A stretch of DNA of 64,000 bases from Hygrocybe punicea (Eukaryota; Basidiomycota; Agaricomycetes; Agaricales; Hygrophoraceae): positions 6,086,891 through 6,150,890 of the forward strand of contig OY744461.1 in the NCBI GenBank assembly GCA_963556145.1. Direction: 5' to 3'. Shown here piece by piece: positions 836-47,119 of the stretch. A model generated the notes under the pieces. It ran no database searches, was not told the origin of the DNA, and worked only from the letters and a program-made list of their open reading frames with translations. The position numbers and the translations under genes are program-made. Every line of letters starts with the position of its first letter. Positions within the stretch are counted from its first letter, which is position 1.

Positions 836-1010
836 CCAGTAACATTGGGGGAGCCCATGGGCTAAACCCCCAATCCCAGTGGATGGGCTGAGATGGGCCG
901 AGATATTATCCAGACCTATAGGATTGGATGGGCCGAGATGAGCCGAGATATTTCTGTCCCTTGGTATTGAATGGGCCCATAAAGTTAGAAATAAGGATTG
1001 CCCACTAGAA
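836..1010 (+). repeat. left terminal inverted repeat, outer part
   Basis: This is the non-tandem outer part of the terminal repeat. It aligns base by base with the reverse complement of 47119-46945, at roughly 80-85% identity by eye. The first 13 bases CCAGTAACATTGG are identical in both. It already contains diverged GATGGGCYGAGATGGG blocks, which lead into the tandem array. Confidence 0.8.
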
Positions 1011-1560
1011 TTGAATGGGCCGAGATGGGGTCAGATATTTATTTCCCACTGGCATGGGATGGGCCGAGATGGGTTCAGATATTTGTTCCCCACTGGCATG
1101 GGATGGGCCGAGATGGGGTGGGATATTTATTTCCCACTGGCATTGGATGGGCCGAGATGGGGTGGGATATTTATTCCCCAATTGCATTGGATGGGCCAAG
1201 AGATTTATTCCCCAATAACATTGGACGGGCCGAGATGGGGTGGGATATTTAATTCCCACTTGAATTGGAAGGGCCGAGAGGGGGTTGGATATTTATTACC
1301 CAATGGCATTGGATGGGCCCAGCTGGGTGTAATATTTATTCCCCACTTGTATTTGATCCCACCCATCTTCTTATCCAACCCATCTCGGACAAGCGGGCTA
1401 TTTATGACACACTACGACAACATCGGCAGGATATTAGGTTCCCATTTCCATTGGATTGGCTGACATGGGGGCACCAATCACGTTAGCCCGTCTACCATGG
1501 GTTGGATATTTATTGCCCAACAATATCGGATGTGCCTCATTGGACATGATATTCATATGC
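1011..1560 (+). repeat. ~44-bp tandem array inside the left terminal repeat
   Basis: The core unit is GATGGGCCGAGATGGGGT, followed by GGGATATTTATTCCCCA and CTGGCATTG. GGGCC cores recur near 1018, 1062, 1106, 1150, 1194, 1229, 1273 and 1317, so the spacing is mostly 44 bp with one 35-bp unit. The last copies (to about 1560) are degenerate. The same unit occurs in the opposite orientation at 46.3-47.0 kb. Short open frames across it are repeat artefacts. By analogy with other DNA transposons the units may be subterminal transposase-binding sites, but that is inference. Confidence 0.85.
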
Positions 1561-1612
1561 AATGAGCATTAAATAAAACCAATATTTGACTCCGAAAGAA
1601 ATTTGCCTGTTA

Positions 1613-4600
1613 CTATTCAACGACATCCACTGGAAAACCTTTCTTCGCCGCTTCTGCAAATCTTTTCCACATTAGAACTTGCTTCTCAGCATATGCGTGA
1701 TGTCCCCTTCCCTGCCTTGAAGACTGCAGTGCTTGTCTCGCTCTTTCCTATACCATCTTATGGTAAACTCCATCTCTGCCAACACCATTGTTTCCTCTTC
1801 CCCTGCTCTCTCTGCTCTAGCCTTCGCTCTCAACCAGTTCACTCTGTAAACTACTGCAACTTCAATGGTATATTGTGGTAGACCTCATTTGAAAACTCAC
1901 ATTCTGACATCCAGTTGTCCTCCTGTTCCTTGTTCTGGTCACCCATTCTCCAAAACCATGCCAATGCATCACTCTTTTGCCCAAATCTGTTTTCTTCCAC
2001 AACATCTCCACTAAGCTTCAAATCATCTCTACGAATTTCTTGGTAATGTGCCAATGTTTCATTGTCCACACCCAGGTTTACCAATGCCCTACAAGCTTGA
2101 CCATAAGACCTCACACATTCACGCAAAGCCACATCTGCATGACGAATGGCTCCCCAAGTCCGTGTCTTGGCCTTTTGTCCTTTGGCCTTCCTAATCCTTG
2201 TTCGATAAAGCAATGCTTTATGTCCCAGAGCGAAACATATTTTCTCCAGGGACTCGTTAGCTTGTCCTTTTCGAAGCTCCATTTCTTGTGAAGCCATTTC
2301 AATCCATCCCACCCTTTTACATACCTCCTTTCCTATTTTAGAAGGCAAACTGATACGAGCATTTTCTGCTAGGATAGGATCACAATCTTCTTCATAATCT
2401 GTTCCTTCCTCATCTGATGCAGAATCTTGTGAATCATCGGACATGCCAACATCATCCGGGGATGTTTTATCCTTTTCCTCCCAATCCTCTTCCTCCACAT
2501 CATGCCCATTGAGTAGAAAGGTTGTCTTCCTCTGGAAGGCATCAATCCTGCTTTGTAACCGTTTTCGTCGATCCATAATCTTGTTTTGTTCCACTATGGA
2601 AACGGCTTTTTTAAGCTTTCGCATATCATGAGTGAGATTGTCTCTGAAATTCAGAATTGTGAACAGGAAAGTGATGATATAATGTGAGGAACATACTGAG
2701 CTTGTTCAATATTTAGCCCGGACACTAACCAGGCCACTGCATTGGAATCTCCTGCTTCCCCCTTGGCGTTCCTCCCCAATTTCAGACGTATTTCTGCCAT
2801 AGTTGGTGCTACGAACTGTTCATTCATCACTACTATGGGGAGGAAATATCACTGACCTTGCTTCAAAGCAACTTGATAAATTTTCAGTGCATCCCCACGC
2901 TGTGATTCAGTGAAAGTTTGGCTTTCACTCCAGTGTTTCACCAATGCAGGATCCAATGAACTTGACAAATCTTGATATGCCTCCTTGCTTTCTCGTTTGA
3001 CCCTGATGGCTGTTTTATGTTTTGCTATCAACATTTTTACTGTTCAGAGGATGAGTATCAAACCAGGAAAAAGATGATGGTTGTTGCATACTCATTCCAA
3101 CTAACTTTTTCCAGTTTGAATGTCTCATCATGTCATCCAAAATCTCCCGCCGGTGAGCCTTGGTCATGTACTTTGTGATGCGTGAGATCAACTCGATGAT
3201 TGCCCACAGAGTTTCCATCTGTTCTCCATCCAGCTGCCCAGCACCACGAATAAAGTTGGGTGAGAATTTTGGAAAGCAGTCGTCCTTGTGAGCATTTAAA
3301 TGGAATTTTCTGATACCAAAGATCAATTCCATGGTAGGTGCATCCAAAAAACTACTCTGCTTCACACGTCTACCAAAATTCACTGCCCACTCACATATCA
3401 CATCATAGAACAAGAGAGCTTGCCGCATGCCTTCGGTGTTGTACTTGAGGGCTTCACATATTGAGTAGTCTATGTTCATTTGCCTGACGAGGATTTCAGG
3501 TCACGTCAAGGACATTCTGACCTGACCTCGTTACCTTTCACCCTTCTGAAAATCCACCATGCTGTGCGGAACGAAGCATCCATGCCTCGCACAGGCACAG
3601 GCACCAACCCCTGTGGATTCCAGGTTCTTATTGTTTGCATTGCTCTGGGTGACTGCTCTGTGCTTGGAACATGATGATTTCTAATGCAAGTTTGAGTTTG
3701 GAACCTAAGACCACAACAAATGAATTTTGCACCTGTTTGACCTCCACGGCTTCCTTGATGTGCTCTTCATAGGAAGCTCTTTGCACAAAATACCCAGTTC
3801 CATTCGTAAGCTCCACATCATCGCCGGGATTCCTCATGTGCATGTGTTCCGCAGTAAAATTTCCATCCACCACGAGGCTTCTCCGAAACAACCACCTGTG
3901 AAAATGTTACTTTCAATAAACATTGGCAGGTCCATTTTACTAATGGATTAGGCAATTCCTTCCAGTTATCAGGGAGGTTGATGCCTGGCTGTGGGCATGC
4001 TGGGCAGAAGAAAGCGAGGTCGCCATTGCCTGGTTCTTTGTCAGTGTCGTGGCCATAACCAAACCATTTCCGAACTTTGATGTCACGCCATTGCCGTGAG
4101 ACCCTCATGAGCTCTCTATAGCGGTCCTATTTGACAGGTCCATTCCACCATCACCATCCATAAATACAGCCTTTAAGATGGAGACTCACCGATACGGTGT
4201 CAGGAAAGGCATTATTTGTAAGCCGGCGCAGTTTTGAGTAGAAATTGTTGGCAGAAGTCTTACATTCAACCTGATCGACATGAAAGTAATCCAGGACTTG
4301 AAAGGTAAATGCCGAGCGAGGATGTTTGAATGTTGCCGGAAAGAGACCGGTCTTGAACAATTGCCATTGTGGCTCGTCTTTTGACCCACAATGACACCAT
4401 CGAACACGGTGCCGGTGGATTCCGGAAATATCAACCATAACCAGCACACTGTCATCCGAGTTGTTATCATCATCTTCCTGGTTCAAGTCAACCAGCAGCT
4501 GATCATTCTCGATCTGTGACATCGAAGATGAGCCTTCCCCAACATCCTCCCAGACATCTCAAACAGAATTGGAGGGACATGGATCACCGCCATGCCCAAG

Positions 4601-5173
4601 ATGCAAGCAGAATCCTATGTCATGTAATGAGGATGGGGTGAAGCAGCTTCCATTCCATGATTCGAGTTTGTGGAATGGAGTCCCCTGGTGGGAGATTCGA
4701 CAACATTCTTTACAGAATAATGGACAACCGAGACAGCTCAAGCAGCGAATGGGGCCACCTTGCTTCTTGCAGATATGACAGGTGGCAGGAATAGGTGGAG
4801 CTTCCATGCTCAACATCTCCCTCAGATATTCGTTGCGGAGTGGAATCCACTCCCTGAGGTAACAATTTTGGGTCTGCCAATAATTCAGAGTGACTACAAA
4901 GCAGGTAAAGGAATAGCTGACATTGCCTTTCGCCGTCTTGCGCTTTGGAGGTTGCGGTATACCTGAGTCGGGAGGCACATCTGGGGACATGCTTTGCTGA
5001 CGGTTTGAATCCACAGGTGACTTTTTTAAACTGGATTTCTGTGGACTTTTGGGAAGCTCGCCTGCGACTGGTTTAGATACCCATTTTGTGCGATTTTTCA
5101 TCTTTTTCTCAACAAAGATGACTTCTTGAGCTGTCCTCTTCTTCCCATGTTTCTCTTTGGACAATTTGGGCAT
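1613..5173 (-). CDS. KDZ (Kyakuja-Dileera-Zisupton) transposase with N-terminal CxC2 cysteine cluster
   Basis: This multi-exon gene starts at ATG 5173. A basic, disordered N-terminus is followed by a cysteine cluster (CHICKKQGG, CLSCLGC, FCKECC, then HQGTPFHKLESW and GHGGDPCP). Next comes the CxC2 domain (4513-4190: DISGIHRHRVRWCHC, GLFPATFKHPRSAFTFQVLD, KTSANNFYSKLRRLTN). The KDZ catalytic core follows, with VVDGNFTAEHMHMRNP (about 3890-3840), NLESTGVGACACARHGCF (about 3600), the YDVICEW segment, FHLNAHKDDCFPKFSPNFI and GAGQLDGEQMETLW (3390-3200). The C-terminal helical region runs to about 1613. Inferred introns include 4874-4921, 4514-4564, 4127-4189 and a ~50-nt intron near 3480-3530. The splice near 3,900 is unresolved. 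The last ~50 codons need one frame change near 1,710, so the extreme C-terminus may be damaged. The protein should mobilise the surrounding element by an RNase H-fold transposase reaction. Confidence 0.88.
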
Positions 5174-5225
5174 TGTTGCAAGGTGGTTGATGTTAAATTG
5201 GTTGATGTTTACAATTAGTTGATGT

Positions 5226-5290
5226 TGATGTTACAGGTGACACGTGATGTCACATCATGGCTCTAAAACACACATGTCACGTGCTCCCGT
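5226..5290. promoter_or_regulatory. E-box-rich promoter of the KDZ transposase gene
   Basis: CACGTGATGTCACATC (5241-5256) and CACATGTCACGTG (5271-5283) sit 70-110 bp upstream of the transposase ATG. They contain two CACGTG palindromes and two TCACAT/ATGTCAC half sites. Similar clusters occur upstream of other genes in the element. Binding by a bHLH-type factor is inference from the CACGTG core. Confidence 0.5.
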
Positions 5291-5701
5291 CAACTCTTCT
5301 GCAGGTCTTATGGTTCGCAGCCATGCCTGACAATACTGACAACCACCTTGTTTTCTCATACTTGCGCAGATCAGTGTTACCCCGCCAGTATGGTCAACCA
5401 GAATACCAGTCCCCACCTGCACTGGTTTGCACCAACCTTTGGAACGACGTTATGTTATCCACCTTTGACCCCCTGGCATATACCAGGCGCAGTGCTTTTG
5501 CAGCATGCAAGCCTGAACTTGAGACAACTGTGATCAGACCTCCCTTTCGATGCCTAGATATGCAATTGAGATGCTCTCATTCCTGTTACTGCAACTCAAG
5601 TTGGACAATCTGAACTATAACCTGCTGATAGGCTGATGGCAATGTTATAGAAGTAATATTTCGTAAGTTCAGGACAAGGGTACATATTTTATGAATGATG
5701 T
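5291..5701. other. intergenic between transposase and TET/JBP genes
   Basis: No convincing gene is seen. A 118-codon plus-strand frame starting at 5257 has no recognisable motif. It overlaps the promoter motifs and I do not accept it as a gene. The TET/JBP gene on the minus strand ends at 5702. Confidence 0.4.
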
Positions 5702-7081
5702 TTACGCTGCTACATGTGCCACCTTTTTAATACCCAATTCACGACATTTCACCTCTGGAATGATGGTACAAAATTCTTTCTGCTTAGACCACCCTGACAA
5801 TTCTACATTTAGACGCTCCAAGACTTTCTTCCTGAGGAAATGAGCATAGCAAACTCGATCCCCACCACTCCAGTCCATGACTTCGTGTCTGATGCTGTTG
5901 CCACATAGATAGGAAGACGCCAGTTCCGGGCCCGTAATCGAGCTGCAGTCCAAGGTCAGGCATATCAAGAGTGCAATCATGATAGTCTCTGATACCCAGG
6001 AGGAAGTCATACCAAGGTGGCATACCATTCCCATCACGATGTGCCAATGTCTTCCGGTTGATGATAACCGCGATCCCAGTGAAATGGGATGTCCAGGATC
6101 CTGCAACTTTAGCCGTCAGGTTGGCCGACCTAAGCTTGTCCAAAGCTTTGCTGCCGATTTGTTGCAGTGATGGATGAACCATAAAGAAGACCCGATTGAT
6201 GAATGATTCTACATCAGCTATTGAAGACATCCAATCTCCAGTACCCTGCTTAAGATGGTTTGCAGAAGGCTTCAAAGGGTCACTTGGTCTCTAAAATATG
6301 AATGAGCCTAGCAACCGGAATGTTGGTGGATTTCGGAACTCACAGTATGAGCCTGTGCGAACCACCCTGCCGAATACTCATCACTTCCCGGCAGTAGATT
6401 CTGATCCACAGAATCAAAACGAAAATGTTTTGGGTTGACTCGCCAATTGACCTTCCTGCTTGTTTGTTTACGATGAATCTTTTTTGAGCCGATGACTTGT
6501 ATGCTTTCACTGCCATTCAGCATAACATCCTAATTTGTCTCTACTATTGAATTAATCCTCCCAGATCATCACACGACTTACAGCTTGCTGGGCTGATATC
6601 AACCCTGGAAGATACCAGATTATTATTCATCCACACATGTCCACCACTGTTGTGGGTCTATTCACCCTGCCGAGTTGGGGATTCGCGAACTTGCGCTGTA
6701 ATTGGGCAATTGAGGCCGGGGTACCCAGGCCTTTTTTGACGCGGGTGGCGTAATCCTCGAGGTCCCACTGAATATAAACTACAATGGAGAAACAATTAGA
6801 TTGGGCCATTGGAATCATCATGACTTACTCGGATTCAGCAGAGCTTCTGTGACGATCCGGGCAGCTCTTAGGTCATCTAATCGTTCACCTGCACCCAACT
6901 GGGCACGGGTGACCAAAAGAAAACGTCGTCGCAATTGGCATGCATTACATTCAGATTGGATGCCAATGGATAAATTTAATAAATACCTTTTGCACAGACT
7001 TGGTGAACCTTGCTTGCCAATGCGCCGCCGCGATTTTTGTGAGTTGTCGCGCTTTGAGCCCAAAGGTTTTGATGAGACCAT
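5702..7081 (-). CDS. TET/JBP-family 2-oxoglutarate/Fe(II) dioxygenase, frameshifted
   Basis: The gene starts at ATG 7081 with a basic N-terminus. Exons follow around 7081-6830, 6775-6630, 6500-6345 and 6290-5702. The catalytic double-stranded beta-helix core is in the last exon. It has the iron ligand motif HRD with following GNGMPPWYDFLLG (about 6065-6020), then LQLDYGPGTGVFLS, then after a frame change the distal histidine in SIRHEVMDW and the arginine of GGDRVCYAHF, which would bind 2-oxoglutarate. Members of this family oxidise 5-methylcytosine in DNA, and fungal copies are often linked to KDZ transposons. One extra base near 5904-5909 puts HxD and the distal His in different frames. No intron fits there, so this copy is probably inactive unless it is a sequencing error. 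It is directly behind the transposase on the same strand. Confidence 0.8.
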
Positions 7082-7220
7082 CTCGTGTTGCGGCAAAAAA
7101 GTCCTATACGACGATACACGTCACACAATGATACACGTCAATAGAAACAAACAATGCGATCAGCACGAGATCATATGTCAAGAACGCGGTCACATGCAAG
7201 CAAACAAGATCACATGCTGT
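7082..7220. promoter_or_regulatory. promoter region of the TET/JBP gene with TCACATG sites
   Basis: GTCACATGC (7189-7197) and ATCACATGC (7209-7217) lie about 110-135 bp upstream of the ATG. Two ACACGTCA motifs (about 7117 and 7133) are nearer. They resemble the sites in front of the transposase, JmjC and 35-kb genes. Confidence 0.4.
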
Positions 7221-7462
7221 GGTTGATTGCCATAAAAGGTACGCATGTCATCTTTCGCGACCTGATGCTTATCAGCCATCATCAACCATCATCACTGGGA
7301 TGTTTTGACATGAATCGCGACATGCCAAAAGACCTCAGTGAATGGTTGAACTTGGTTACAATTTCATAAGCCGATAAGTCTTCCATTCTGCATATATCTT
7401 TTGCATTACTTACTTCCGCAATTTCTAGCTGCTCGCCAACAAGCCTGCTTTTACAGCACCAT
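7221..7462. other. non-coding, nothing recognised
   Basis: No gene or repeat is visible. The stretch leads into the 50-bp tandem repeat. Confidence 0.4.
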
Positions 7463-7670
7463 CATTGGGTACTGGGGGCTTCATTGGTGTCTGCCAGCAT
7501 CCTACACGGCACCATTGGGTACTAGGGGCTTCATCGGTGTCTGCCGTCATCCTGCGCGGCATCATTGGGTACTGGGGGCTTTATCGGTGTCTGCCAGCAT
7601 CCTGCGCGGCATCATTGGGTACTGGGGGCTTCATCCGCGTTTGCCAGCATCCTGCGCGGCAACATAGTTT
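7463..7670 (+). repeat. 50-bp tandem repeat, four units
   Basis: Units begin CATTGGGTACTGGGGGCTTC at 7463, 7513, 7563 and 7613, a regular period of 50 bp. Divergence is low (for example ACTAGGGG in unit 2). Two overlapping short open frames (88 and 75 codons) are products of the repeat and are not called as genes. Confidence 0.85.
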
Positions 7671-9230
7671 GGCAGAGGTCGCAAAATTGTAAGTTATGCT
7701 TAAAACTCCTTTTCACCCTAAAGATTTAGCTTCAGATTGACTTCGATTGGCTCTTGCAGTCCCTTTCCTAGCCATTTCCCTCAAATTCAATGCCCAGCTG
7801 GTTGTGCTCGTAAGCGGCTCGAATTAGGGCGTGAATTTTCAACTTATCAGTTGCTTTGATCTTGTAGAGCCCCATTGTTTCAATTTTGGCTTTTGGTTTA
7901 TCTGCTAAGCAAATTTCTTCTCTTTGCCAGTTAAGTGGATGCTTATTATCGCATCTTTGTTTTTTCCAGAGAGCTTGAATTTGCTGTGAAGTAGGGGCCC
8001 CTACAACGCAGCAACATTCGGACTCTCTTCCAGGTCATCCAAATTAACGACGCTGAATCAAGATCGACGACAAACAGCTATTGGTTGGTTGGGGCGGGCC
8101 CGCAGTTGAGGACTTCTTTAATTTACTTTATCTTGGAAATAATAAATGAAATAATTTTAATTTGGTATGATTACATAATTGGATAAGTCAACCTTTAGAA
8201 CAATCGCTGGATGAGGGGATTCCCGGCTCCCCTATGCTTACATAAGCGATCGATCTTTATATTAGTTCTAATGATTAGCATGTCCATTACACCGCGAAAA
8301 AAAACTATCAATATGAACATGCCGATAAATATTTGGAGGAAAAGCAGATGAATGAAGCATTTAAATGTTAGATAAAGGTCCTAATTTGTTATATCTAAGT
8401 AGTTCTTAGCCTCTGGAAGAGAGACTATGGAAATATTGAGACTTACCTCAAGTATTCAAAACACCCCTCCTTGCATGGTAAACATGCAAAGTGGTGACAT
8501 GATATCCTTCTCTTGTGTAGAGCCGGACTGTCGTATGTAGCGGTTCGGTCTGGCGCGTCCCGCCGTAATGCGCCGGACCACTATGAGCAAGTTAACAAGC
8601 ACGAAAAAACAGTCATCAAGTCATGGTGCATTACTGGATTTCCGCCCATTCAACCCCAGACACGCCCCATCTCTGGCGGACCGCGGCAGCCTGCACATCG
8701 TGGATGGCCCTCCGTTTAACGTGGGGTTTGTTGGCGTAAACTCTGATGTCGCGGAAATATACATGGGGATGTCTGGCCATAACTATTGTTTGGGTTGGGG
8801 TTAAAATGTCATGGCCGACTAATCAGCCGTGACATGGTCACATAGCTGCTTGCCTAAGCGTGAAGTCCGTGAAGACATAAATACAACAGAGAAAGTAGAT
8901 ATTCTGACTAGACAAAATTGTTAGAAAAGATTCCTACCACCAAAAAGGAGTGGTGCATGGGAAATAAATTCAGTTGCAGGTGAGATTTAGCCAATGAAGA
9001 ACGACAATTGAAGTCCATGCCATTGGAGACCGGAGAGGGTTTAAAATGTTGCCTAAAGATGAGAAGGTAGGAGGAGACAACAAGATTGGAGGGTTAGCTG
9101 AGACAAAATGCAGGGAGGATTGGGCATGGCACCACAGGATGGAAGAGGTTCCAAATTAAATAGCAAGGCTTTAGATTGGAGAACAAGATGTGTTTCTGGA
9201 CAACAAGTGGAAAATTGGATGATCGAATTG
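7671..9230. other. 1.5 kb without a recognisable gene
   Basis: No supported coding region is seen. A short GC-rich segment at 8513-8800 holds a hairpin (8547-8556 pairs with 8570-8579, 13-nt loop). CCGTGACATGGTCACAT at 8827-8843 belongs to the shared GTGAC/TCACATG motif set. The rest is AT-rich and featureless to my reading. Confidence 0.4.
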
Positions 9231-10010
9231 CCTAATTTGGTTACAGTTGCCAAATATGGAAACAGCTTCCAAAATGTTCTTGCTGTTCTAGAGAGCCACA
9301 GAATGGCTATCAGACCATTGCAACAGTCCCAGAACTGAATGTCAACTGGTAGTAGGATGTGAGCAACTTGGGGTATTTTTGGTGCAAATATATAGAGCGA
9401 TATTCATGTTTTGTTGACACCCCTCCACCAAAATAGGACCCTGAAACTTCTTTATCTCTCTTACTCCAGCAATAAAATGGCAAAAAAATCCACACTGGCA
9501 GCTTTGGACAGTTATGATGCATTGCAATGCATTCTTCATGTGTGCCTTGAGTTTACAAGCTGACCTGGTTACAGTTTGGCCATGGATGCCAAAGTATCAA
9601 AAGTCCAACAAACGTGATGATCATGCAAATTCCAGGTCATGTTACCTGCCAATTCATCATTCGATGTATATAACTTCATATGTCATAAACCTCCAGGCAC
9701 ACATGAACAGGGCATTCCAATGCATCACACCTTTCCAAAGCTGCTACCTCAGATTTTTTTGCCATTTTATTTTCGGTGTAAGAGAGATATATAAGTTTCA
9801 GGGTCCTATTTTGGCGGAGGGGTGTCAACAAAACATGAATATCGCTCCATATATTTGCACCAAAAATACCCCAAGTTGCTCACATCCTACTACCAGTTGA
9901 CATTCAGTTCTGGGACTGTTGCAATGGTCCGATAGCCATTCTGTGGCTCTCTAGAACAGCAAGAACATTTTGGAAGCTGTTTCCATATTTGGCAACTGTA
10001 ACCAAATAGG
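9231..10010. repeat. foldback (MITE-like) inverted repeat
   Basis: The left arm (about 9231-9545) starts CCTAATTTGGTTACAG. The right arm (about 9700-10010) is its near-perfect reverse complement, ending CTGTAACCAAATAGG. The arms are about 310 bp with a spacer of about 150 bp. Neither arm has a credible gene. I could not define a target-site duplication. It is probably a non-autonomous DNA element or a snapback duplication inside the larger element. Confidence 0.75.
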
Positions 10011-10205
10011 GTAATGGTCAATAACCTCGTCACGGCCGATTTGTCGGGCGTGACAACTCACAAAGCATGTGACCTTGTCCTCAGGTTCGTCACAGGTTTC
10101 TCATCAACCAAACATCATTCTTTCACATGTCTCCCCTCCCTGTCAAGCATTACCATTTGGGCGTAGGAACACCGATTTTAGTCAAGTAGGGGGTTTTGAC
10201 CTATG
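10011..10205. other. intergenic with shared GTGAC motifs
   Basis: CGTCACGGCCGAT (10029-10041) and CATGTGACC (10066-10074) occur here. The first is the reverse complement of ATCGGCCGTGACG, and very similar blocks are at 8821 and 16609. No coding region is seen. Confidence 0.35.
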
Positions 10206-10692
10206 AATGGCTGTCATCCAGGTAAATTGTAAATTATTCATTACATGGTCCCTGGCTGACCATAATAGATGTCTCCTAAACTTTGAGACTGACAAGTTGT
10301 CTCTGGAACTGAGAATTGAATGTGAGGTTTTGTCATGGAGGGTAAGTCCTGCTGCTATATAACAGGATATCATGCGAAAAGTTGATATCATGCAGTATAC
10401 TGATCCTGCACTGGATAGCCTAAGACGAGTCATCATTCAATTAGATGTAGACATTGCGAAACCTTGTGAATGGCAACTTGAGTATGCAAGGCTGAAGGGA
10501 GGCAAATCGAGTTAGTGCAGGTGAACTTATCCTATGCAGGAAACTGAGAGAACTTCTAGCAGAGATTTTGAACACCACCGTGTCATTTTCATTTGACTTT
10601 GAACACCGAGAGTGGTCTCATGATGAATATGCTGCATTGGTGGAATCATTGTCTGATGCATTTGCTCCTAGCCAGTCTAAAAGGCTAAAGTA
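10206..10692 (+). pseudogene. unrecognised coding remnant upstream of the JmjC gene
   Basis: Three exon-like blocks read on the plus strand. The first is 10206-10341, ending before a possible donor GTAAGTCC. The second is 10368-10520 (starts DIMRKVDIMQYTD) and ends in TAG. The third runs 10540-10692 (KLRELLAEILNTT... DEYAALVESLSDAF), followed by GTAAGTTG. The blocks look like coding sequence in composition, but the TAG breaks the run and I recognise no domain. It could be an upstream exon set of the next gene or a decayed separate gene. Confidence 0.3.
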
Positions 10693-10865
10693 AGTTGTCA
10701 AATTTTCTTCCCTCCGTTTCATCTGTCAATCTATAATGTATCAACAAATAAATAGTGCACAGGAAACCACTCGGGCATGGAATATCTGCACATTCCAAGC
10801 TCTAGTAGACAAATAGTTTATTTAATAGTTTAATAGCGATGCTGCCATTTCCAAATTTGGTTTTC

Positions 10866-10903
10866 CATGTGACAACATGTGACAACACGTGATGTCACGA
10901 CGC
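10866..10903. promoter_or_regulatory. CATGTGAC/CACGTGATGTCACG cluster before the JmjC gene
   Basis: CATGTGACAACATGTGAC and then CACGTGATGTCACG lie about 45-80 bp upstream of ATG 10946. The second block is almost identical to the block 5241-5254 in front of the transposase. Confidence 0.5.
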
Positions 10904-10945
10904 ATCAATTCAACATTTTAACCACTAATATTTTCTGTTCAAACA

Positions 10946-13900
10946 TGTCAAGCAGTGGCAGCCAAGCAACTGAAGCCTCTTCCTCAGCGTTGGCCATATC
11001 TTTTCGACACAATACCGCTCTCCTGCATGACTTTCCATGGACCAATGGCACTCTCCTCATTCGAGGCGCTATGAAGGATCAGCTTCGCTTGGCTCTATTA
11101 GGTTCCAGCTGCCCCATTTCCCAAGGCCAGCTGCTCTTGGTGAGTTTATAATTCTGTTCGATGAGCAATCAACCCAAAGTTGAACATGAACCAGAACATG
11201 GCGCAAAGCCTTGACACTTTTTCACCACATCGAGTGTATGGCGACAGGGTTACAGGATTCTTGAAGGAATTCTTCAATCTGAATGCAGCATGTGGACCTC
11301 ATGGTGCTCTAGCGACTGTTGGCAATCCCAGAAGATGGTCATCTTCGCCAGCGGTGTATATCAGCGCCGCCGCAGAAATTGTGAACCGATATTCTCTTCT
11401 GGACCAGCTTGCGGATGCAATGGGAGTGCCAGCAACAAGAACGACACCGGTCATATTTCGAGGAGCAAAGCCCCATGATTTGCCAACAAAGTTAACACAG
11501 GTATGCGCATGAATGTTCGTATTTCAATGAAAGAGATCAGCTCTGAGTTCCTCGTAATAGATCTTGACCAAACTTGATGATTGGACTCAGCCTATCCTGG
11601 ATTTGAGGACCCGAGAGAGAAACGCCCGGCTTGGTGATGGCTTTGGGGCCAGTTTGGCAAAGGCCAGGTTGTTCGCGAATGCTGAACCTGAGCAGCTCAG
11701 TCATTAGCAGTTGCTGCTGAAACAAGGGGTCATGAGTCTTTTGCGGGCTGGGCAACATATTCATGAGGCCAAGTATACCCAATCGCTGGTCAACTTGGAA
11801 CTCATGTCTTTCGCTCTGTGCTGGTTTGGCTTGGTAAGTTATCTTGCCCCTTCTTGGCATCCATGTTGGGCTTATAAATCCAATATAGGGCAAGGATCGG
11901 CTTCCAGAGAGCCCACAGACATTTATCTAAACTTTACGAGGGTAAGTATCATTGATATTGGTAATACGATGTTGACGCTGACTGGAGCCATATTGAAGCT
12001 GGGCAACATCCCTGGGAATGCCTTTGGGTTCAGATTTGATTACGCTTTTCGAAAACATGAGTTCTGCAAAGGCCATTGTCTTGAGGATGGTCAATCTGTT
12101 CCATCTTCCGGTCTCCATCTCTCCCATCGTTGCTCTCCTTCCCCGACAGTTCAACAACGAGCAAATTCGCAGGGATCATTTGATCACAGTGAGCACCATT
12201 TTACGGTTTTCTCAATTGTCTAACCTCATGACATAAAGATGAAACTATTGCTCGGTAATCATAAGCCCTCCTGCCTGATGCAAACGGAACGCTGTCTTTG
12301 GCAAATTTTGCTCCGAATGTCGACCGGTTCCAATGCAAAGACAGAACTCCAATTGTTCCTACGAGAATTTGAGCAGCTCTCCCTCCGTTACGAGGATGAG
12401 AACATGCACTTGGATTGGTTTTCCAAATGTATGTATTCCATTGTGTTAACCAATTCCTTGACCCAGGATTTAACTCCAACACAGGGCCCGTTATCTCAGT
12501 CCCTAAACATCACCAAGCAAATCAGAACAGAGCATCCATGAGCAGATCTGAGGAACCTGTCATCATCATTGATGATGACAGTGAGTCAGAATTGGACAAC
12601 GGCACCAGGTGGCGACATGAGAAAAAGCAAGAGCAGCCAGCCGAGCCGGAGCCCAAGGGGAAAGAGAAGGAGCAGGGGAGCAAGGAAGACGCTGACATGG
12701 ACATGGAGGAACCAACGGCAGTGGATGTAGATGTCGACATGGATATCGACGTGGATATCGACATGGGTGCAGAGCAGCAGCAGGGGGAGAAGAAGCAGAA
12801 GCAGTGCCAGGAGGAGGAAGAGGAGGAGGATGACCCCATCTGGCGGCCAGGGCAGACAAACTGGTCTGACTACAAAGACGAGCCTTGGCAGAGGAACAAC
12901 TCTGCGGGGTGGCGGCCGTGGTGGATGGAGGAGGAGGAGGTGGAGGACCTTTTGCACCCACCAGGAGAGGAAGAGCAAATGAGCAGTGAGCCGCCACAGC
13001 CTCAAGGGGACGACCAGTGGAGGGGGGAACAGCTGCAACATGATGAAGGGGAAGCTCAAGAACAGGACAGGGAGCAGCTGCAACCAGTTGGGGAGGAAGA
13101 GCAAATGAACGATGAGCCACTACAGCCTCAAGGGGAGGCCCAGCAGAGTGAGGGGGAGCCACAACCGGTGCAAGGGCAGGATCAGCAGGGGCGGGGGGAT
13201 GAACCACAGCCAGGGAGGGAGGGCCAACCTGGAGAGTGCAATGAACCCCCGCCGGCTTTGGAGGATGATGGACCACAACGAGCAGTGGAGGGCAATGGAT
13301 CACCAGTGGAGGAGGAGGGCGATGGACCACCACCAGCGGTGGAGGGCGATAGACCGCCACCAGCAGCAAAGGGGGGTGGACCACCGCCAGCTGTGGAGGG
13401 GGATGGACCACCGCTGGCGGTGGAGGGCGATGGACCACCACTGGCGGTGGAGGGTGATGAACCACCGCCACCGGTGGAGGGTGATGGACCACTGCCGGCT
13501 TTGGAGGGCAGTGAACCACCGCCACCGGTGGAGGGTGATGGACCACCGCCGGCTGTGGAGGGCGGTGAACCACCGCCACTGGTGGAGGGTGATGGACCAC
13601 CACTGGCTGTGGAGGGCATTGAACAACCGCCAGCTTTGGAGGGCAATGGACCACAAGCAGCAGTACAGAGCGATGGACCACCGCCAGCGGTGGAGAGCAA
13701 CGGACCACTGCCAGTGGTGGAGGGCGGTGGACCGCTGCCAGTGGTGGAAGGGGGTGGACCAGTGGCGGAGGGGGTTGGACCACCGCCAGCAGTGGAGGGC
13801 GAACAGGGTGAAGGTACCAGACCACGACCTGAGGGGGAAGGCGAAGAGGAGGAGGAGGAGGAGGAGGAGGAGGAGGAGGAGGAGGAGGAGGAGGAGGAGG

Positions 13901-16306
13901 AGGAGGAGGAGGAGGAGGAGGAGGAGGAGGAGGAGGAGGAATCAGAAGAAAGCGAAACTGAGCTAGGAACCCAATTGCGCCCGGTAACACGCTCGCAAAC
14001 CAATGCTCTCAAAGGGAAGACGACACAAAAGGGCCCTCCTGCTGGGTACCAGACCTACTTCACTGCAAGCAAGAAACGGTGTGCACCAGCTTCGAAATGG
14101 AACAGCCATAAGAAAAGGAAGCTTATGGACAGAAGTCAGATGATTTCATCAGAACTGCCCGGTGAAGTGAGTATAACTTTGTGACCAATCTTTCAATGCA
14201 CATGAGTTAATGATGGAAATTAGTCATTCAATGGCACTCCGGTCAAAAACCTCGAACTTCCTGAAGTCAGTTCATCTCTAATGCCCGAGATATCAACTAA
14301 CCAGAGGAACAGATGTCTGAGGATCATGTGCCTCTCAGGGTTTTTGGAGCCGACCGAAATGCAGAAGCATCTCATTTCACATTTCAAAGTAATGCGGGCT
14401 CGGTTAGTCCTATTTCTAGTTGTTGGTTTGATTTATTTACATGGACAACATAGGATGAATGTGAATATTGGTGTTTGCGAACCATCCAAGAGGAAGTGGA
14501 GTCTTTATATGAAGATGGAAGACCTCTTCATCACCTACCATCCGCCAGCGACCCAGAATTTGATCCGGATGGTTCGAGTATTTTTGTAGTGGCATATGAT
14601 CAGTACCTCCAAATGGATACCTCGACGATCCAGGATATCTTTGAACAAAGACATATCCTGGTCCATGGAGTCCCACAGCAGGAACGTCTCCAGTTTGACC
14701 TGGAAGGTCTCTCCAGACTTGGGAGTCTCAAACATGAGCATAACGTGCAGGGTTTGTCTTGTCCTTTTACTGATCCTTGCTGTTACTCACCAAATGACAA
14801 AGTTGGTTCCTTTCGCACCCGGAAAAGTCATGGAAAGATGCTGCATGTCGGGACTCTGCAAGATTTGTATAATGCATCTCTGTTAGAAGGACGAAGACAC
14901 ATCTGGAACATGCTGGACTTTCCCATGGGTCACCTCACGGTTCATCCACCGCCCATGTACCGGTATGATGCGAAATTATCTATCCTCAGTTTTCAATTGA
15001 CAAAGATGCTCTCCTCCAGCTCGCTGGCATCCCATGAGCAGGCCATGTCGGAAACCCGGGGACAACCAGGTTATATTCCAGGCAAAACATTCGCGGACGA
15101 ACTCTCTTGGGGGACTGCGGCATTGCGCGGTGCAACTTCTTGGCCGCATGCTGATGATGATGGTTTTGCCACAGTTGTAAGGGTAATGACAGGCAGCAAG
15201 TATTGGGTTGTCATGCGCCGCAACAGAGAGACACCTCCCTGGAATAGCAATGGAGACATGGCGACTCGTCATGCATTTGGAAAGGGTTGGGGTCCCCTCA
15301 GTCCATCCAAAGGCATCTGGGAGAAAGAGGGGGTGCTGTTGACGCCAAACGATGTCTTGTGAGCGTTATTCATTCCATCACAGACTTATCTAACAAATGA
15401 TGCCAGTTTCCAAAGGCCGAACACAGTCCATTATGTAGTCACCCTGCAGGACTCCATCATATATGGAAATCACTTCTATGCCACATCGTCGATCAAGGAC
15501 ACCTGTTTTGGAATCATCCACACCTTCATCATGTCCTACTCCATCACAAATACTCAACATAATACCACCCAGACCATTCTGAGAAGAATGATGGGTATGT
15601 GGCATGAACATTTGTGTGTCAATGAGGCTTCAGCTGTCGGTATGTAGTTGCTGTTCATATTCTCATCCCTCTACCTAAATCATGATCCTCAATAGGTGTA
15701 GATCGCGAATATCACATTCCTGATGTTTCGACCCCTGCTGGCCTCTTGGATGTGGTGATTGTGGGCAATCTTCTGGAGATGGCGGAGGTGATCAATCGAA
15801 ACCATTACAGTGGTGAGATGGATGACTTGGAAGAGGAGGAAGAGACCTTCGCCCGATTGTGATACCGCCGATTCTGCACCTGGTTTGCAGGAGAATATGT
15901 GACGATTTTGGGTGGGATATGGGTGCATCCTTCCTACATCTTCAAACGTGCTCTGCTTCAGTTTTGCCTCTGCCTCATATTTTACAAACGCGAGAGGCAG
16001 GCACAATTGGTGAACGTGCCCTTGACAACTGGTTGCACCTCCCTCAAACTAGAAAGGAAGATCCTGGCACATTTCGAGACTCAGTGGCCCGAATTGATGC
16101 CCTTGATGGAAACCCTGCTGGATGATGAAGCTCCGATAACAAGCGACACTTGGAGTTTCAATTGGAGCGGACCAATGTTCACAATTGCAAGTAGGAATTC
16201 TGACATGGCGAAGGCATTGGCTGCAGCATCCACAGAAAAAAGGGATTTCGCAAGAGAGCCGATTTACAGCCCTGAAGGCGATATGGATGTTGCCACTGCA
16301 TCCTGA
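10946..16306 (+). CDS. JmjC-like 2-oxoglutarate oxygenase with long acidic/proline linker (two in-frame stops)
   Basis: The gene starts at ATG 10946. Exons up to 12428 give a helical N-terminal region. The exon ending at 12428 joins in frame, across a 56-nt intron (12429-12484), to a long exon (12485-14166) of acidic, Gln/Glu and Pro/Gly repeats. Short exons follow (14224-14265; 14313-14398; from about 14450). The last joins into the catalytic domain: ELSWGTAALRGATSWPHADD, with the HAD iron motif, and FATVVRVMTGSKYWVV. After an intron at 15360-15407 comes FQRPNTVHYVVTL with the distal histidine. This is the JmjC/cupin pattern. The C-terminus (YRRFCTWFAGEYV...) is read after an in-frame TGA at 15860-15862. 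A second in-frame stop, TAG 11705-11707, lies in an upstream exon. The gene is therefore probably inactive now. Substrate is unknown. Histone or other protein demethylation/hydroxylation is the family role. Confidence 0.65.
13250..13810 (+). repeat. in-frame ~36-bp coding repeats (Pro/Val/Glu/Gly) in the JmjC linker
   Basis: About fifteen repeats encode variants of DGPPPAVEG. The reverse strand is also open across them, which explains long spurious antisense frames. Confidence 0.8.
13842..13939 (+). repeat. (GAG)n microsatellite encoding poly-Glu
   Basis: About thirty consecutive GAG triplets encode a run of more than 30 glutamates at the end of the acidic linker. Length polymorphism and replication slippage are expected here. 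Confidence 0.9.
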
Positions 16307-18996: not shown

Positions 18997-19252
18997 TATT
19001 CTCTGGTCTGGCTGCAAGCTTTGTCTTCATATCTGCAATGCTCCAGAGTCAATGTGTTAATTTTGTCATTGTTTCCTTGTCCTGTCTGCATGACTTGATG
19101 TGTATCATTTGCTACATTGAAATGCATAATGTTTCAATACAAATATGGACAAGTGAGGTCCAGTAAGAGGTGGAATGACTGGTAAAAAATGTGGTTATTA
19201 AAGTTCAGGGAGGCGAGAATATGTCCTGATATCTGCAGTGTATATTTACAGA
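18997..19252. other. 3' region of the preceding gene up to the Helitron end
   Basis: No gene is seen. The Helitron terminus begins at 19253 and the base before it (A19252) fits the expected T after CTAGT on the minus strand. Confidence 0.4.
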
Positions 19253-32029: not shown

Positions 32030-33202
32030 CTATTTTTCCGGCTCCTCTAGAGAATCGGAACTAGAGACCGGAGGTGCGGAGGAAGTGGAGGCGGCGCGGG
32101 CGGCAACGCGAGTGGACGAATATTTGGCCTTGGTGCAATCCTTGGCCATGTGTCCGGCTCCTCCGCATATAATGCAGAGTTTATTGTTGATGCGGCGTTG
32201 ACGTTCCGCGGGCTTGAGTTTACCATCCTTGCCTAGCTTATCGGCGTAGACATGAGGGGTTTTCGGAGTGGTGGAGGAGGTACTACCGGAGTTGGTAGTT
32301 TTGGCAGGGGACTTCTTCTCGGAAGCTTTTTCGGTCGAAGACTTGGCCTCGGAAATAGAGGCTTTAGCAGAAGAGGATCCTGAAGCACGGGAAATCTCCG
32401 ATTTCCGTTCCCAATACCGGGCGTCAAGGAGTTGAGCCTTATCCTTCAGTTCGTAGAGGTTCTTTGGTTTCTCGGATTGGGCAAGTTGATCTTTGAGGCG
32501 ATCCGGAAGTCCTCGGTAAAAAGAATGCCGTAAGGCACCAATGTCCCAGCCAGTCTGCGTAGCGAGACGATTGAAGTTAACGATATACTTCGCAATTCGT
32601 TGGTTATCCTTCATTACAAGGTTTTCCAACTCGCTCTCGGCGCTACCTTTAGGGTCCAGAGGTCCGAAATTATTCTGCAACTCCGTGCAGAAATCTCCGT
32701 AATCGGACATGAAGTCTGGCGGATAGGTATCGATATCCGGGTTCTCCAAAAGGTAAGGCTCGAACCACGCAAGTGCGATCCCCTTGAGGTAGGAGAGGGC
32801 AAAGTTGACTTTGGCGCCGTCCGTTTGGAAAGCGGTTGGTCGATCATTGAAGTTCAGTTGACACTGAACCAGGAAAGGGCGGAGTTTTGTCGGATCGGAG
32901 GCGTCAAACGTGTCCGGTTCTCGGACTTTGGTGCGTTGCTTGTCGTCTCCTTTGTTTCGGAGAGTAGTGGCTAGTAGAGCGATGGCCTCAGCAAGGTTGG
33001 TATCATCGCGATTAGGATTGCCCGGTCCGAGAGGATTGTTCTCTTCGAAGACTGGGCGCGGAAACGGTTCGTGTCTTGGAGTGTGAGTTTCTTCTAACGG
33101 AGAGACCGGGGTTATCGTTGGGCGTTGGGATGAGGTGTTTGCCGGTCGTGTAAGTCGATAACGTGTGGGGGTTCTTCGTTGGGAGAAGCCTTGGAAAGAC
33201 AT
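32030..33202 (-). CDS. gag: gypsy Gag with CCHC zinc knuckle
   Basis: ATG is at 33202 (MSFQGF...), and the protein has about 390 residues. The capsid-like middle part contains FALSYLKGIALAWFEPYL and YIVNFNRLATQTGWD. Near the C-terminus is one knuckle, CIICGGAGHMAKDC (C-x2-C-x4-H-x4-C), preceded by a Ser/Lys-rich linker. It ends GAA AAA TAG at 32030. Pol is open in the -1 frame across this stop. Confidence 0.93.
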   Translation of the reverse strand: MSFQGFSQRRTPTRYRLTRPANTSSQRPTITPVSPLEETHTPRHEPFPRPVFEENNPLGPGNPNRDDTNLAEAIALLATTLRNKGDDKQRTKVREPDTFDASDPTKLRPFLVQCQLNFNDRPTAFQTDGAKVNFALSYLKGIALAWFEPYLLENPDIDTYPPDFMSDYGDFCTELQNNFGPLDPKGSAESELENLVMKDNQRIAKYIVNFNRLATQTGWDIGALRHSFYRGLPDRLKDQLAQSEKPKNLYELKDKAQLLDARYWERKSEISRASGSSSAKASISEAKSSTEKASEKKSPAKTTNSGSTSSTTPKTPHVYADKLGKDGKLKPAERQRRINNKLCIICGGAGHMAKDCTKAKYSSTRVAARAASTSSAPPVSSSDSLEEPEK

Positions 33203-33235
33203 GATCAAATGTAAAGGGAATACGACTCAAGAGTT

Positions 33236-33246
33236 GTTCAGAAAAT
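33236..33246 (-). other. self-priming PBS of the gypsy element
   Basis: Two bases inside the 5' LTR the minus strand reads ATTTTCTGAAC. This is perfectly complementary to GTTCAGAAAAT in the LTR (33473-33463, minus), which would be the start of the transcript. Such an 11-nt match is the Tf1 self-priming arrangement. Confidence 0.7.
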
Positions 33247-33248
33247 AC

Positions 33249-33809
33249 TGTTAGAGGCGTGCAACTCCGGAAGGATCGGAGTTCTTCGGAGGAGCGGAGA
33301 CGTCAACTCTTGAAGTAGGTTCACTACTTCCTTAAGTCATATTGAGAAGACGTGGACGGAGCGGAGTTAGTCCGGAGTTCCGGACTAAGTACTAAGATAA
33401 CTAATGAGCTTAAGGGAAAGCCTTAAGTTTGAGAGTGGGTAAGAAATAAGGAACTCAAGTTAATTTTCTGAACGGAGTTACAGGACATTGTAGTTCTAGT
33501 TTATATACTTGGTAGACTAATTGTCATGTCCTTGGAGACGTGAAGACAATATGAACTCCGGAAAGAGGACCGGAGTTCGGAAGAAAATAAAAGGGATAAA
33601 AGGTTGCTATGTACGGTGACAAGTAAACAAAGGGGAGGAAGAGAAAAGGAGGTCGGAGTAAACGGAGATGGGGAAGAATAGTAATTAACAAGAGAAGAAC
33701 AATAACGTACGCGAGAAGATAAGATAAGATAAGATAAGATAAGATAAGTCGGCGGAAAAGTCCGGAGCGGAGTTCGTCGGAATCCGGCGGAGCTGCATGG
33801 GATATGACA
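33249..33809 (-). repeat. 5' LTR of the gypsy element (561 bp)
   Basis: Starts TGTTAGAGGCG and ends ATATGACA. It has one more GATAA unit than the other LTR. The R region would begin at 33473 if the self-priming reading is right. Confidence 0.95.
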
Positions 33810-45760: not shown

Positions 45761-46240
45761 CACACACATAATTCCAATGCATCCAGCAAAATATATGTAT
45801 CTGCAGACACACATTTCACATATGGTTCATCCTGTGTCTACCACACAGAAAATATACCCAGGAAACTCATTGAACACTGAACACTGTTCAGCCCATTCAC
45901 CTCATCTATATTTCAAAAGGTGCACATTACACTACCAATGCAGTCCGTTATGTCAATAAAGCTGTCAAGCAAAGACGTTGCAACACTACCTATTCCAAAA
46001 TTGGCAACTGTGATCTGGGAACCTGTGATCAAGCCGCCTTATTGTTCTTGCTTATTGGGACACCAAATTCTCACAGTTACAAAGTCAGCAGTCACACGGT
46101 TTCAAAACTATTCCCAGGGCTTCAAAATTGTTCGCACAGTTTGCAAAGATTGTTCCCACGGCTTGGCAAATTAGAGTCTGACCCTGAGTTGAAAAATCCA
46201 CCGTATAGAACGATTCCCTTATAGGGACTCGTAATGTCAG
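45761..46240. other. spacer between 170-bp array and right terminal array
   Basis: No gene is recognised. Confidence 0.4.
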
Positions 46241-46944
46241 GAAAGAGATTTCGTTATCCTCTGGATGTGGATGCCAGTGTAGAGTAAATATTACCTTAAT
46301 CTTGGCCCATCCAATGGCAGTGGAAAAGAAATCTCCCTCTCTGCCAGGGGACAGATATATCGCATCCCTACGTTTGGTGGGAAATGTTTGTCCCCCTGAT
46401 GTCGGCCCATCCACTGCTAGTGGGGAATAAATATCCCACTGCAGCCAGTGCCAGTGAGGAATAAATATCCCACCCCATCTCGGCCCATGCAGTGTCAGTG
46501 AGGAATAAACATCCTACCCCACCTCGGCCCATCCACTGCCATTGGGGAATGAAGATCCACCCCATCTTGGCCCATCCAGTGCCAGTGGGGAATAAACATC
46601 CCACCCAATGTGGGCCCATCCACTGCTAGTGGGGAATAAATATCCTACCCCACCTCAGCCCATCCAGTGCCAGTGGGAAATAAATATCCCACCCTACCTC
46701 GGCCCATCCAGTGCCAGTGCGGAATAAATATCCCACCCCATCTCGGCCCATCCAGTGCCAATGGGACATAAATATCCTACCCTACCTCGGCCCATCCAGT
46801 GCCAGTGGGGACTGCCAGTGGGAAATAACTATCTCACCCCATCTCGGCCCATGCCCTGCCATTGGTACAAACATATCCCTGCCCATGTGGGCCCATCCAA
46901 TGATATTGGCAAATAATTATTCTACCTAATTTCGGCCCATCCAA
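46241..46944 (-). repeat. ~44-bp tandem array inside the right terminal repeat (inverted)
   Basis: The unit reads ACCCCATCTCGGCCCATCCA then GTGCCAGTGGGGAATAAATATCCC. About fifteen copies are present with some shortened ones. It is the reverse complement of the array at 1011-1560. Confidence 0.87.
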
Positions 46945-47119
46945 TTCTAGTGGGAAAGAATTATTTCTACTGTTCTGGGCCCATTCACTGTGAAGGGAAA
47001 AGATTATCTCAGCTCATTTCAGCCCATACAATCCAATAGGCCTGGATATTATCTCAGCCCATCTCGGCCCATCCACTGGGATTGGACCTTTAGCACATGG
47101 GCTCCACCAATGTTACTGG
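46945..47119 (-). repeat. right terminal inverted repeat, outer part
   Basis: Read on the minus strand from 47119 it starts CCAGTAACATTGGTGGAGCC and follows the left end (836 onward) colinearly. Confidence 0.8.

Follow-up and report, generated by a model that had tools for sequence, protein, structure and literature searches.

A KDZ-Superfamily Transposon Family in Hygrocybe punicea with Inverted Terminal Arrays and a Putative Pair of Oxygenases

RESULTS

A KDZ element enlarged by later insertions

The 64,000-nucleotide stretch of Hygrocybe punicea DNA analyzed here (the window) contains a DNA transposon of the KDZ superfamily, which is one member of a multicopy family. As found, the element occupies 46,329 bp (813-47141), including nested insertions. 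The native element is 813-19253 plus 46235-47141, or 19,348 bp, and family copies that were fetched whole span approximately 19 to 22 kb. With its array-type ends and putative two-oxygenase anti-silencing kit, it probably moves by cut and paste, a mechanism that we infer from its genes and ends (see Discussion). A previous reading of the window, made from its sequence only, had proposed a KDZ transposon that ends in inverted arrays and carries oxygenase genes. That core idea stands, but the size that it gave and the missing target-site duplication do not. Nor is this a lone giant element; it belongs to a family that is repeated in the genome.

Table 1. Features of the window copy and its nested insertions
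Feature	Position	Strand	Remarks
Left target-site duplication	806-812	.	AATCATT, perfect 7 bp
Whole KDZ element, including nested insertions	813-47141	.	Placed by termini, target-site duplication, and sister-copy comparison
Terminus A and subterminal array	813-1460	+	CACACCTTGC...; ~44-bp units
CxC2 and KDZ transposase gene	1613-5173	-	11-exon model (our own), 975 aa, no internal stop
TET/JBP dioxygenase exon	5700-6290	-	HRD motif; frame lost before distal His in the window copy
Foldback insertion	9227-10015	.	Arms of 328 nt; E41b has it inverted and E34c lacks it
Small gene (G11)	10945-11707	+	215-aa model; short match in family II
Acidic repeat-rich ORF	12239-14166	+	27-bp (9-aa) repeats
JmjC-like oxygenase gene	14313-16306	+	7-exon model, 550 aa; HxD...H motif
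Gene G3	16665-18797	+	561-aa model with an uncertain first exon; present in family II as well
Nested Helitron	19254-46234	-	26,981 bp including its own insert; CTAG at its 3' end, with Rep and helicase domains
gypsy LTR retrotransposon inside the Helitron	26768-33809	-	LTRs 98.6% identical
Terminus B and its array	46235-47141	-	...GCAAGGGGTC
Right target-site duplication	47142-47148	.	AATCATT, perfect 7 bp

The boundaries had been placed at 836 and 47119, which is 22 to 23 bp too far inward; the true termini are at 813 and 47141. The statement that there was no target-site duplication was wrong because AATCATT flanks these termini. The ends themselves were confirmed. An identical sequence is present at both inverted ends, in that CCAGTAACATTGG occurs once on each strand of the window (at 836 and at 47107-47119). 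The arms at 836-1142 and 46813-47119 are 81% complementary across 307 nt, in agreement with the claimed inverted homology and inverted arrays of ~44-bp units. End A begins with CA, and the opposite end finishes with TC in the copies that were read (inward GA, with AA in E1c).

With up to 4 mismatches of 17 allowed, the arrays of the window copy have 11 core motifs in the forward orientation at end A and 15 in the reverse orientation at end B. Across seven copies, motif counts were 9 to 76 at end A and 7 to 27 at end B, again in opposite orientation, and the middle of the element had none in any of the seven. The array shuffle control preserved base composition only.

The nested insertions also correct the view that the 46 kb is a single unit. 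Positions 19254 to 46234 are a later Helitron that holds a gypsy element. It has Rep and helicase genes and a CTAG 3' end and was inserted between A and T without duplication, all of which are characteristic of Helitrons, and each of its ends was matched at all 40 scored places in the genome. The insertion site is uninterrupted in all five fetched sister copies that have a target-site duplication, and these are 19.2 to 21.9 kb long. Because all five read across the site, the genes within 19254-46234 are foreign to the native element. The sister copies, together with the nested Helitron and gypsy elements, rule out 46 kb as the native size.

Other copies in the genome

Paired ends with a KDZ gene between them, and empty sites, had been named as tests of the element. 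A genome search gave 14 convergent end pairs, 19 to 60 kb apart, among 63 listed ends; 2,000 random placements gave a mean of 0.67 and a maximum of 5 (the sizes of C33 and C36 are approximate in the random-placement controls). Thirty-five of the listed ends were unpaired, which counts against the earlier reading, although the scoring covered the best 40 of 84 and the best 40 of 81 candidates, and copy counts are therefore lower bounds. Every one of the 14 pairs has a KDZ or CxC2 match between its ends as well as a TET/JBP match, and 13 have a JmjC-like gene; both the pairs and their contents were matched by reading the match lists by eye. Identical 7-bp target-site duplications were present at 12 of the 14 paired-end copies and were not found for E34c and E1c.

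The empty-site test was positive for a sister copy only. The rejoined target of E41a matched 40 of 40 scored places unbroken, at 94 to 97% identity (best 40 of 1,225 candidates). No empty site for the window copy was found in this assembly, where its flanks are unique. Pairing, target-site duplications, and empty sites rule out the suggestion that the two ends are unrelated repeats.

Among close copies, and with other C/G sites of these copies as the baseline, CpG transitions were 5.4 to 7.6 times as frequent as those at the other sites, and the GpC control ratio was 0.65 to 0.95. The excess was only 2.5 for the pair formed by the window copy (W) and E34c. A CpG transition excess would be expected of a methylated element.

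Genes of the native element

Gene models were made by codon-substitution scoring across copies. They replaced the poor models from a hexamer-based gene finder that had been trained mainly on the nested elements.

A KDZ transposase had been reported at one end, and we found the KDZ domain at the left end. The 975-aa model matches KDZ (PF18758; E = 1.4e-46) and CxC2 (E = 7.9e-26), which places it in the KDZ superfamily. By the exon model, its frame is open in two of seven copies (W and E6a); the others have internal stops or frame changes. The TET/JBP-like oxygenase was also confirmed, as a TET/JBP domain at the left end. In each of the six sister copies that were fetched in full, the reading frame continues through this domain. 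The Tet_JBP match of the E6a copy is over the cut-off (E = 1.8e-13), with HxD and the distal His, and that of the window copy, with its broken frame, is just under it. A JmjC-like gene lies within 13 kb of 50 of the 96 TET matches over the cut-off, compared with 2.5% of random points, and 41 of the 96 have both a JmjC-like gene and CxC2.

The proposed JmjC-like oxygenase of the interior corresponds to the gene at 14313-16306, with a weak domain assignment. By profile search, the window protein gave no JmjC match. A Jaapia relative matched JmjC at an E value of 6.3e-4, which is below the curated cut-off, and one of six family cores matched at 1.4e-5. The AlphaFold model of the Jaapia relative has a pLDDT of 51. 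Other matches of the JmjC-like protein were weak and included JmjC_2 (best E = 0.0031) and, as the best in the PDB, the cupin-4 chain 4csw (E = 1.5). These matches make the JmjC identity of the predicted protein a weak assignment. The HxD...H pattern is retained in family members that span that region. The frame is open in five of seven copies and broken in E41a and E34c, and dN/dS-type ratios range from 0.20 to 0.99 depending on the copy pair.

Introns of the JmjC-like gene differ at 9 of 341 positions between W and E34c, where flanking DNA differs by ~14 to 17%. The KDZ introns of the same pair have 71 differences in 633 positions, including one intron at 0 of 76. The low difference in the JmjC-like introns may reflect block exchange of this gene between lineages. 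The acidic ORF may be the 5' part of the JmjC-like gene. Only W and E41b have an open frame for the G3 model.

A second, diverged family

Family II encodes KDZ, TET/JBP, the small protein, the JmjC-like oxygenase, and G3, plus an acidic ORF. By tblastn, run without a low-complexity filter or composition correction, protein identity to the window family is 28 to 74% by segment for five genes; the likeness of the acidic ORFs is compositional only. At the DNA level, family II is mostly unalignable to the window family among the matches listed. The sample is two fetched loci, and the left end of the C1 locus lies beyond the fetched stretch. Family II has the termini CACACCTT...GGGCTC with a 6/7 target-site duplication. 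It also has 44-bp arrays, and its exact core motif is restricted to its ends. GGAT[G/T]GGCCGA is common to the 44-bp units of both families. In the literature searched, we found neither a gene set shared by two such diverged families nor inverted arrays of 44-bp units with this motif at both families' ends.

DISCUSSION

The explanation that we consider probable is as follows. At each end, the CxC2-KDZ transposase would bind the repeated units that contain GGCCGA, and it would mobilize the element by a cut-and-paste mechanism in which the cut is staggered by 7 bp. Methylcytosine that the host places on the element would be oxidized by the TET/JBP enzyme. The JmjC-like oxygenase would remove a second, chromatin-level silencing mark or modify another protein. 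Together, these activities would keep the genes of the element expressible. The 46-kb size of the window copy came later, from insertion of the Helitron and then of the gypsy element inside it.

Other explanations bear on the size and the ends. It is extremely improbable that this is a true 46-kb giant transposon whose entire interior is mobile cargo. The outer ends and duplication do enclose 46,329 bp, the window copy might still be mobile in its present form, and a second copy, E34b, is also ~46 kb with an intact duplication. However, the five duplication-bearing sisters are less than half that size and unbroken at the insertion site, and the inserted stretch has the domains of a Helitron and a gypsy element and Helitron ends that recur at every scored place. 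E34b does have a match to that Helitron end, but its position differs (C34:2736775). The subterminal arrays might instead be structural or regulatory, such as silencing bait or promoter repeats. Their size (7 to 76 motifs) has no obvious relation to copy intactness, and, judging from how end-A matches are spread on C39, the array there extends over several kilobases. We consider this unlikely nonetheless, because the arrays are at both ends, mutually inverted, and absent from the middle, and the 44-bp unit with its GGCCGA-containing core is retained in two families. Their position suggests that they act as transposase-binding ends.

The genes invite two further alternatives. In one, which we judge quite improbable, the transposon took up the JmjC-like gene and the others from the host by chance, and they are not working parts of it. 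Their function is a prediction, two of the JmjC-like frames are broken, and the E8-E6a ratio for this gene is 0.99, from few changes. Furthermore, 25 of 83 JmjC-like loci (merged exon rows among the matches listed) have no TET match within 13 kb and no CxC2 match within 20 kb. Against this, the same gene set is found in two families whose DNA mostly cannot be aligned, the JmjC-like frame is open in most copies, and its W-E6a ratio is 0.20, compared with 0.25 for KDZ. In the other, the JmjC-like protein does not demethylate histones but either hydroxylates proteins or is an inactive scaffold, and the kit targets other proteins. We are inclined to doubt this but take it as a real possibility, because the protein matches JmjC_2 and a cupin-4 chain only weakly and sequence alone cannot discriminate between these roles. 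Pairing of this gene with TET in two families speaks against this alternative, and retention of HxD...H in the members that span it argues against an inactive scaffold.

We tentatively suggest, as something a little short of probable, that this is a eukaryotic DNA transposon lineage with a two-layer anti-silencing kit (a DNA-demethylating TET enzyme and a JmjC-type chromatin oxygenase), retained with a recurring gene set across diverged families, and that its long inverted arrays of 44-bp units are multi-site transposase-binding ends. The family is compact, with exact ends, several close copies, TET and JmjC-like frames that are open in most copies read, and a second oxygenase retained beside TET. 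Such a family allows one to ask directly whether transposons counter host silencing in DNA as well as in chromatin, and the conserved 44-bp end units give studies of KDZ transposition a defined substrate.

Transposons carrying TET/JBP are known, and the role of the gene for them is without experimental validation (PMC12730594). The closest described elements are TET+ Kyakuja of Agaricomycetes, which have a KDZ transposase and TET/JBP, a 7-bp target-site duplication, and 5'-CA..TG-3' termini (Kojima 2025, PMC12730594). The window family likewise combines a KDZ transposase with a TET/JBP gene, has a 7-bp duplication (12 of 14 pairs), and starts with CA. However, its 3' terminus is TC, whereas that reported for Kyakuja is TG. 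Two Kyakuja families of Laccaria bicolor were reported to lack TIRs (PMC12730594), unlike the window element, which has 307 nt of imperfect inverted homology plus 44-bp arrays. It also differs from Kyakuja as described in carrying the JmjC-like and further genes. The terms "subterminal" and "jmjc" each occur zero times in the main text of PMC12730594, and the reconstructed Kyakuja sequences in its supplements may already contain these genes. We place the window element at the superfamily level, as a probable Kyakuja-like member of the KDZ superfamily.

Zisupton has a KDZ-type transposase in common with the window family, but the target-site duplication reported for it is 8 bp rather than 7 bp (PMC12730594). 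Phytophthora HarbingerS/MuDR elements are likewise DNA transposons that encode a chromatin-modifying enzyme; theirs is a SET methyltransferase, according to the same paper, whereas those here are oxygenases, and the transposase and lineage differ. No Starship-type tyrosine-recombinase captain was found among 18 proteins scanned, and it is the KDZ gene that sits near end A. Starship elements of Pezizomycotina are also fungal, large, and cargo bearing. They are reported as elements of Ascomycota with a tyrosine recombinase, whereas the transposase of the window family is of the KDZ type and its gene set recurs.

Element ends and copies in the genome

A sequence-only reading had proposed a 46-kb KDZ giant transposon at 836..47119, without a target-site duplication. 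The identical inverted sequence that it placed at both ends is present. In the window, the 13-mer CCAGTAACATTGG occurs once per strand, at 836 and 47107-47119, and the arms around it are 81% complementary over 307 nt. However, a left-end comparison revealed that homology to a sister copy extends past the proposed left boundary. The true ends of the window copy (W) are at 813 and 47141, and a perfect 7-bp duplication, AATCATT, lies on both outer sides of them.

We searched the 92.2-Mb genome (42 contigs, with the 64-kb window on one of them) with the end sequences, scoring the best 40 of 84 candidates for one end and the best 40 of 81 for the other. This gave at least 63 distinct element ends. 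Fourteen pairs were convergent, far above the random expectation (mean of 0.67 and maximum of 5 in 2,000 random placements); the other end neighbours within 61 kb were one divergent and two same-direction. A KDZ or CxC2 match lay inside all 14 pairs. Identical 7-bp duplications flanked 12 of the 14 pairs examined, and none was found for copies E34c and E1c. Among the listed ends, 35 had no partner, and these could be fragments, ends with unscored partners, or old copies. Sister copies E8 and E6a were 98.8% identical.

Empty sites, which the same reading had suggested as a check, were found within this genome for sister copy E41a. Its flanks were rejoined with a single copy of the duplication (junction at query 91-97), and the query matched unbroken over 1-190 at 94-97% identity in 40 of 40 scored places (best 40 of 1,225 candidates). 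These matches are empty sites within a repeat family. The flanks of W are unique in this assembly, and therefore W has no empty paralogue in this genome. The KDZ element family is real and well defined.

Features of the window copy, its surroundings, and the family II element
Feature	Coordinates	Strand	Details
Element start	813		CACACCTTGC; from comparison with a sister copy and the duplication
KDZ transposase		minus	975-aa model; KDZ E=1.4e-46, CxC2 E=7.9e-26
TET/JBP		minus	W: domain match just under cut-off, frame lost before the distal histidine
Foldback insertion	9227-10015		328-nt arms, 92% complementary; inverted in E41b, absent from E34c
JmjC-like gene	14313-16306		550 aa
Nested Helitron	19254-46234		between A and T, begins CTAG; Helitron_like_N and PIF1 helicase domains
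Gypsy retrotransposon	26768-33809		inside the Helitron; LTRs 98.6% identical
Element end	47141		GCAAGGGGTC; from the flanking duplication
Long ORFs	53732-58943		reach up to the second Helitron copy; first ORF with DUF4100 and aspartyl-protease matches, all below cut-off; perhaps another retroelement
Second Helitron copy	58888-64000		extends beyond the window end
Family II element	contig C34, 17,866 bp		termini CACACCTT...AAGGGCTC; 6/7 duplication, arrays at both ends

A nested Helitron accounts for the 46-kb span

W is 46 kb only because it has been invaded. The five duplication-bearing sister copies compared whole were 19,151, 20,282, 20,347, 21,109, and 21,905 bp long. In all five, window sequence 813-19253 was joined directly to about 46233-47141. 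Besides the insert, they differed from W in array length, about 1.4 kb of extra sequence in E41a, and smaller changes. Therefore, the proposal that the whole span is one unit does not hold.

The ends of the inserted Helitron are abundant genome-wide (377 first-look candidates for the 5' end and 391 for the 3' end). All 40 scored 3'-end matches (best 40 of 391) were 100% identical, and the best 40 of 377 at the 5' end were 87-100% identical. Two lists of scored matches held 10 same-direction end pairs within 45 kb, with spans of 11.9, 19.3, 19.5, 19.5, 27.0 (the window's), 28.4, 29.3, 29.5, 34.6, and 39.6 kb. The window's span fits a Helitron of ~19.5-20 kb plus the 7.0-kb retrotransposon, and the longer spans would be further nested or mispaired copies. 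The 3' end was also inside E34b, the other 46-kb copy, at a different place from that in W (C34:2736775), and in E1c (C1:6958023). Other contents of the window Helitron are further ORFs and, at 35-46 kb, 82-bp and 170-bp tandem arrays.

Genes carried by the native element

Exon models were built from codon-substitution patterns across copies, and the gene content of the 14 end pairs was scored by reading search hit lists. The KDZ transposase and TET/JBP gene named by the sequence-only reading are both there. The KDZ frame was open in two of seven copies (W and E6a); E41b, E8, and E41a each had one internal stop, E34a had two, and E34c had a frameshift. Of 615 KDZ-matching proteins, 120 were listed; the named ones among these come from mushroom-forming fungi, and the closest of those listed is from Plicaturopsis crispa (44% identity), which makes it likely that the host is an agaricomycete. 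Five annotated fungal proteins among the same 120 (Suillus, Sparassis, and Pisolithus) have both KDZ and Tet_JBP, and are either true fusions or models merged across neighbouring transposon genes. The TET/JBP domain read through in all six sister copies compared whole (E=1.8e-13 in E6a), and there was a TET match inside all 14 end pairs.

A JmjC-like match was inside 13 of the 14 pairs, with none for E1c among the matches listed. Its frame was open in five of seven copies (stop in E34c, frame change in E41a). The HxD...H motif, which has a role in 2-oxoglutarate oxygenases, is retained in relatives spanning both parts. Among named proteins, the nearest is one from Jaapia argillacea (38% identity over 333 aa), which is annotated as JmjC domain-containing. 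Pfam JmjC reached E=1.4e-5 for one of six family cores and did not match the window protein. The top PDB profile match was a weak one, to a cupin-4 protein (E=1.5). Assignment of this gene to the JmjC oxygenases is therefore weak.

Two further genes, the small protein (G11) and G3, matched no Pfam family over the cut-off. The G3 model was open in W and E41b only, and its first exon is uncertain. The dN/dS-type ratios, by pair, were 0.25-0.53 for KDZ and 0.20-0.99 for the JmjC-like gene.

Inverted subterminal arrays

Inverted arrays had been claimed for both ends, and all seven copies have them. Allowing up to 4 mismatches of 17, the core motif occurred 9-76 times at the left end (end A) and 7-27 times at the right end (end B), in opposite orientation, and was absent from the middle of all seven. 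A single stray reverse motif lay near end A in five copies, and shuffled W sequence gave 0.25. The 44-bp array period was shared with family II, a second, diverged element family. In the single copy of each family compared, exact GGAT[G/T]GGCCGA was confined to the ends and inverted, with 4 and 7 occurrences in W and 11 and 3 in the family II copy. The looser [G/T]GGCCGA had additional matches in the middle, three in W and two in family II. One copy had end-A matches spread over about 7.6 kb (C39:1058279-1065902), which would imply a much longer array there than any in the copies compared whole.

CpG decay and an unusually similar block

Between close copies, CpG transitions were 5.4-7.6 times those at other C/G sites, and the excess was only 2.5 in the more distant pair W-E34c. 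The same measure for GpC was 0.65-0.95 (three pairs). Measured on transposon copies, this excess fits deamination of methylated CpG. Between W and E34c, divergence was much lower in the JmjC-like block than in the sequence around it, and this held for the introns as well (9/341, against 71/633 in the KDZ introns). This suggests exchange between lineages, possibly by gene conversion or block exchange.

TET and JmjC-like genes are paired beyond this family

A genome search with the JmjC-like gene found many further loci, at ~50% identity, that adjoin TET genes. A JmjC-like gene lay within 13 kb of 50 of the 96 TET matches over the cut-off, compared with 2.5% of random points, and 41 of the 96 had a CxC2 match too. 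Counting all TET matches, the figure was 53 of 122. Conversely, 52 of 83 JmjC-like loci (merged from the matches listed) had TET within 13 kb, and 25 had neither TET within 13 kb nor CxC2 within 20 kb. The commonest layout was same strand, about 3.6-4.4 kb apart. The W family differs (opposite strands, about 9-12 kb), and there was one opposite-strand case at 3.6 kb. Among the matches listed, 49 of 122 TET/JBP matches had no CxC2 or JmjC-like match within 13 kb; such lone loci may be held by other transposon types or be domesticated genes.

By tblastn, the C34 family II element encodes five W-family genes: KDZ (32-74% identity by segment), TET (39%), the small protein (40% over 57 aa), JmjC-like (31-41%), and G3 (28-30%). 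A family II copy on contig C1 has an acidic ORF before its JmjC-like gene, with a likeness to the W acidic ORF that is compositional only. Among the matches listed, only short KDZ, JmjC-like, and low-complexity pieces of DNA aligned between the families. Because both families share these genes while their DNA mostly does not align, the genes appear to have been either kept together over long divergence or rejoined.

Proposed mechanism and relation to known elements

We propose that the CxC2-KDZ protein would bind array units at both ends, then cut and reinsert the element with a 7-bp stagger, the length of the observed duplications. TET and the JmjC-like oxygenase may relieve host silencing, as their domains, their pairing, the CpG decay, and their conservation suggest. 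A silencing-escape role for TET was already proposed (Kojima 2025, PMC12730594). The main text of that paper does not mention JmjC, and a JmjC-KDZ pairing was not found in the openly licensed literature searched, which does not prove its absence from print. That paper describes TET+ Kyakuja elements as lacking TIRs, carrying CA..TG at their termini, and duplicating 7 bp of target. The family described here is a variant of the already known TET-bearing KDZ elements.
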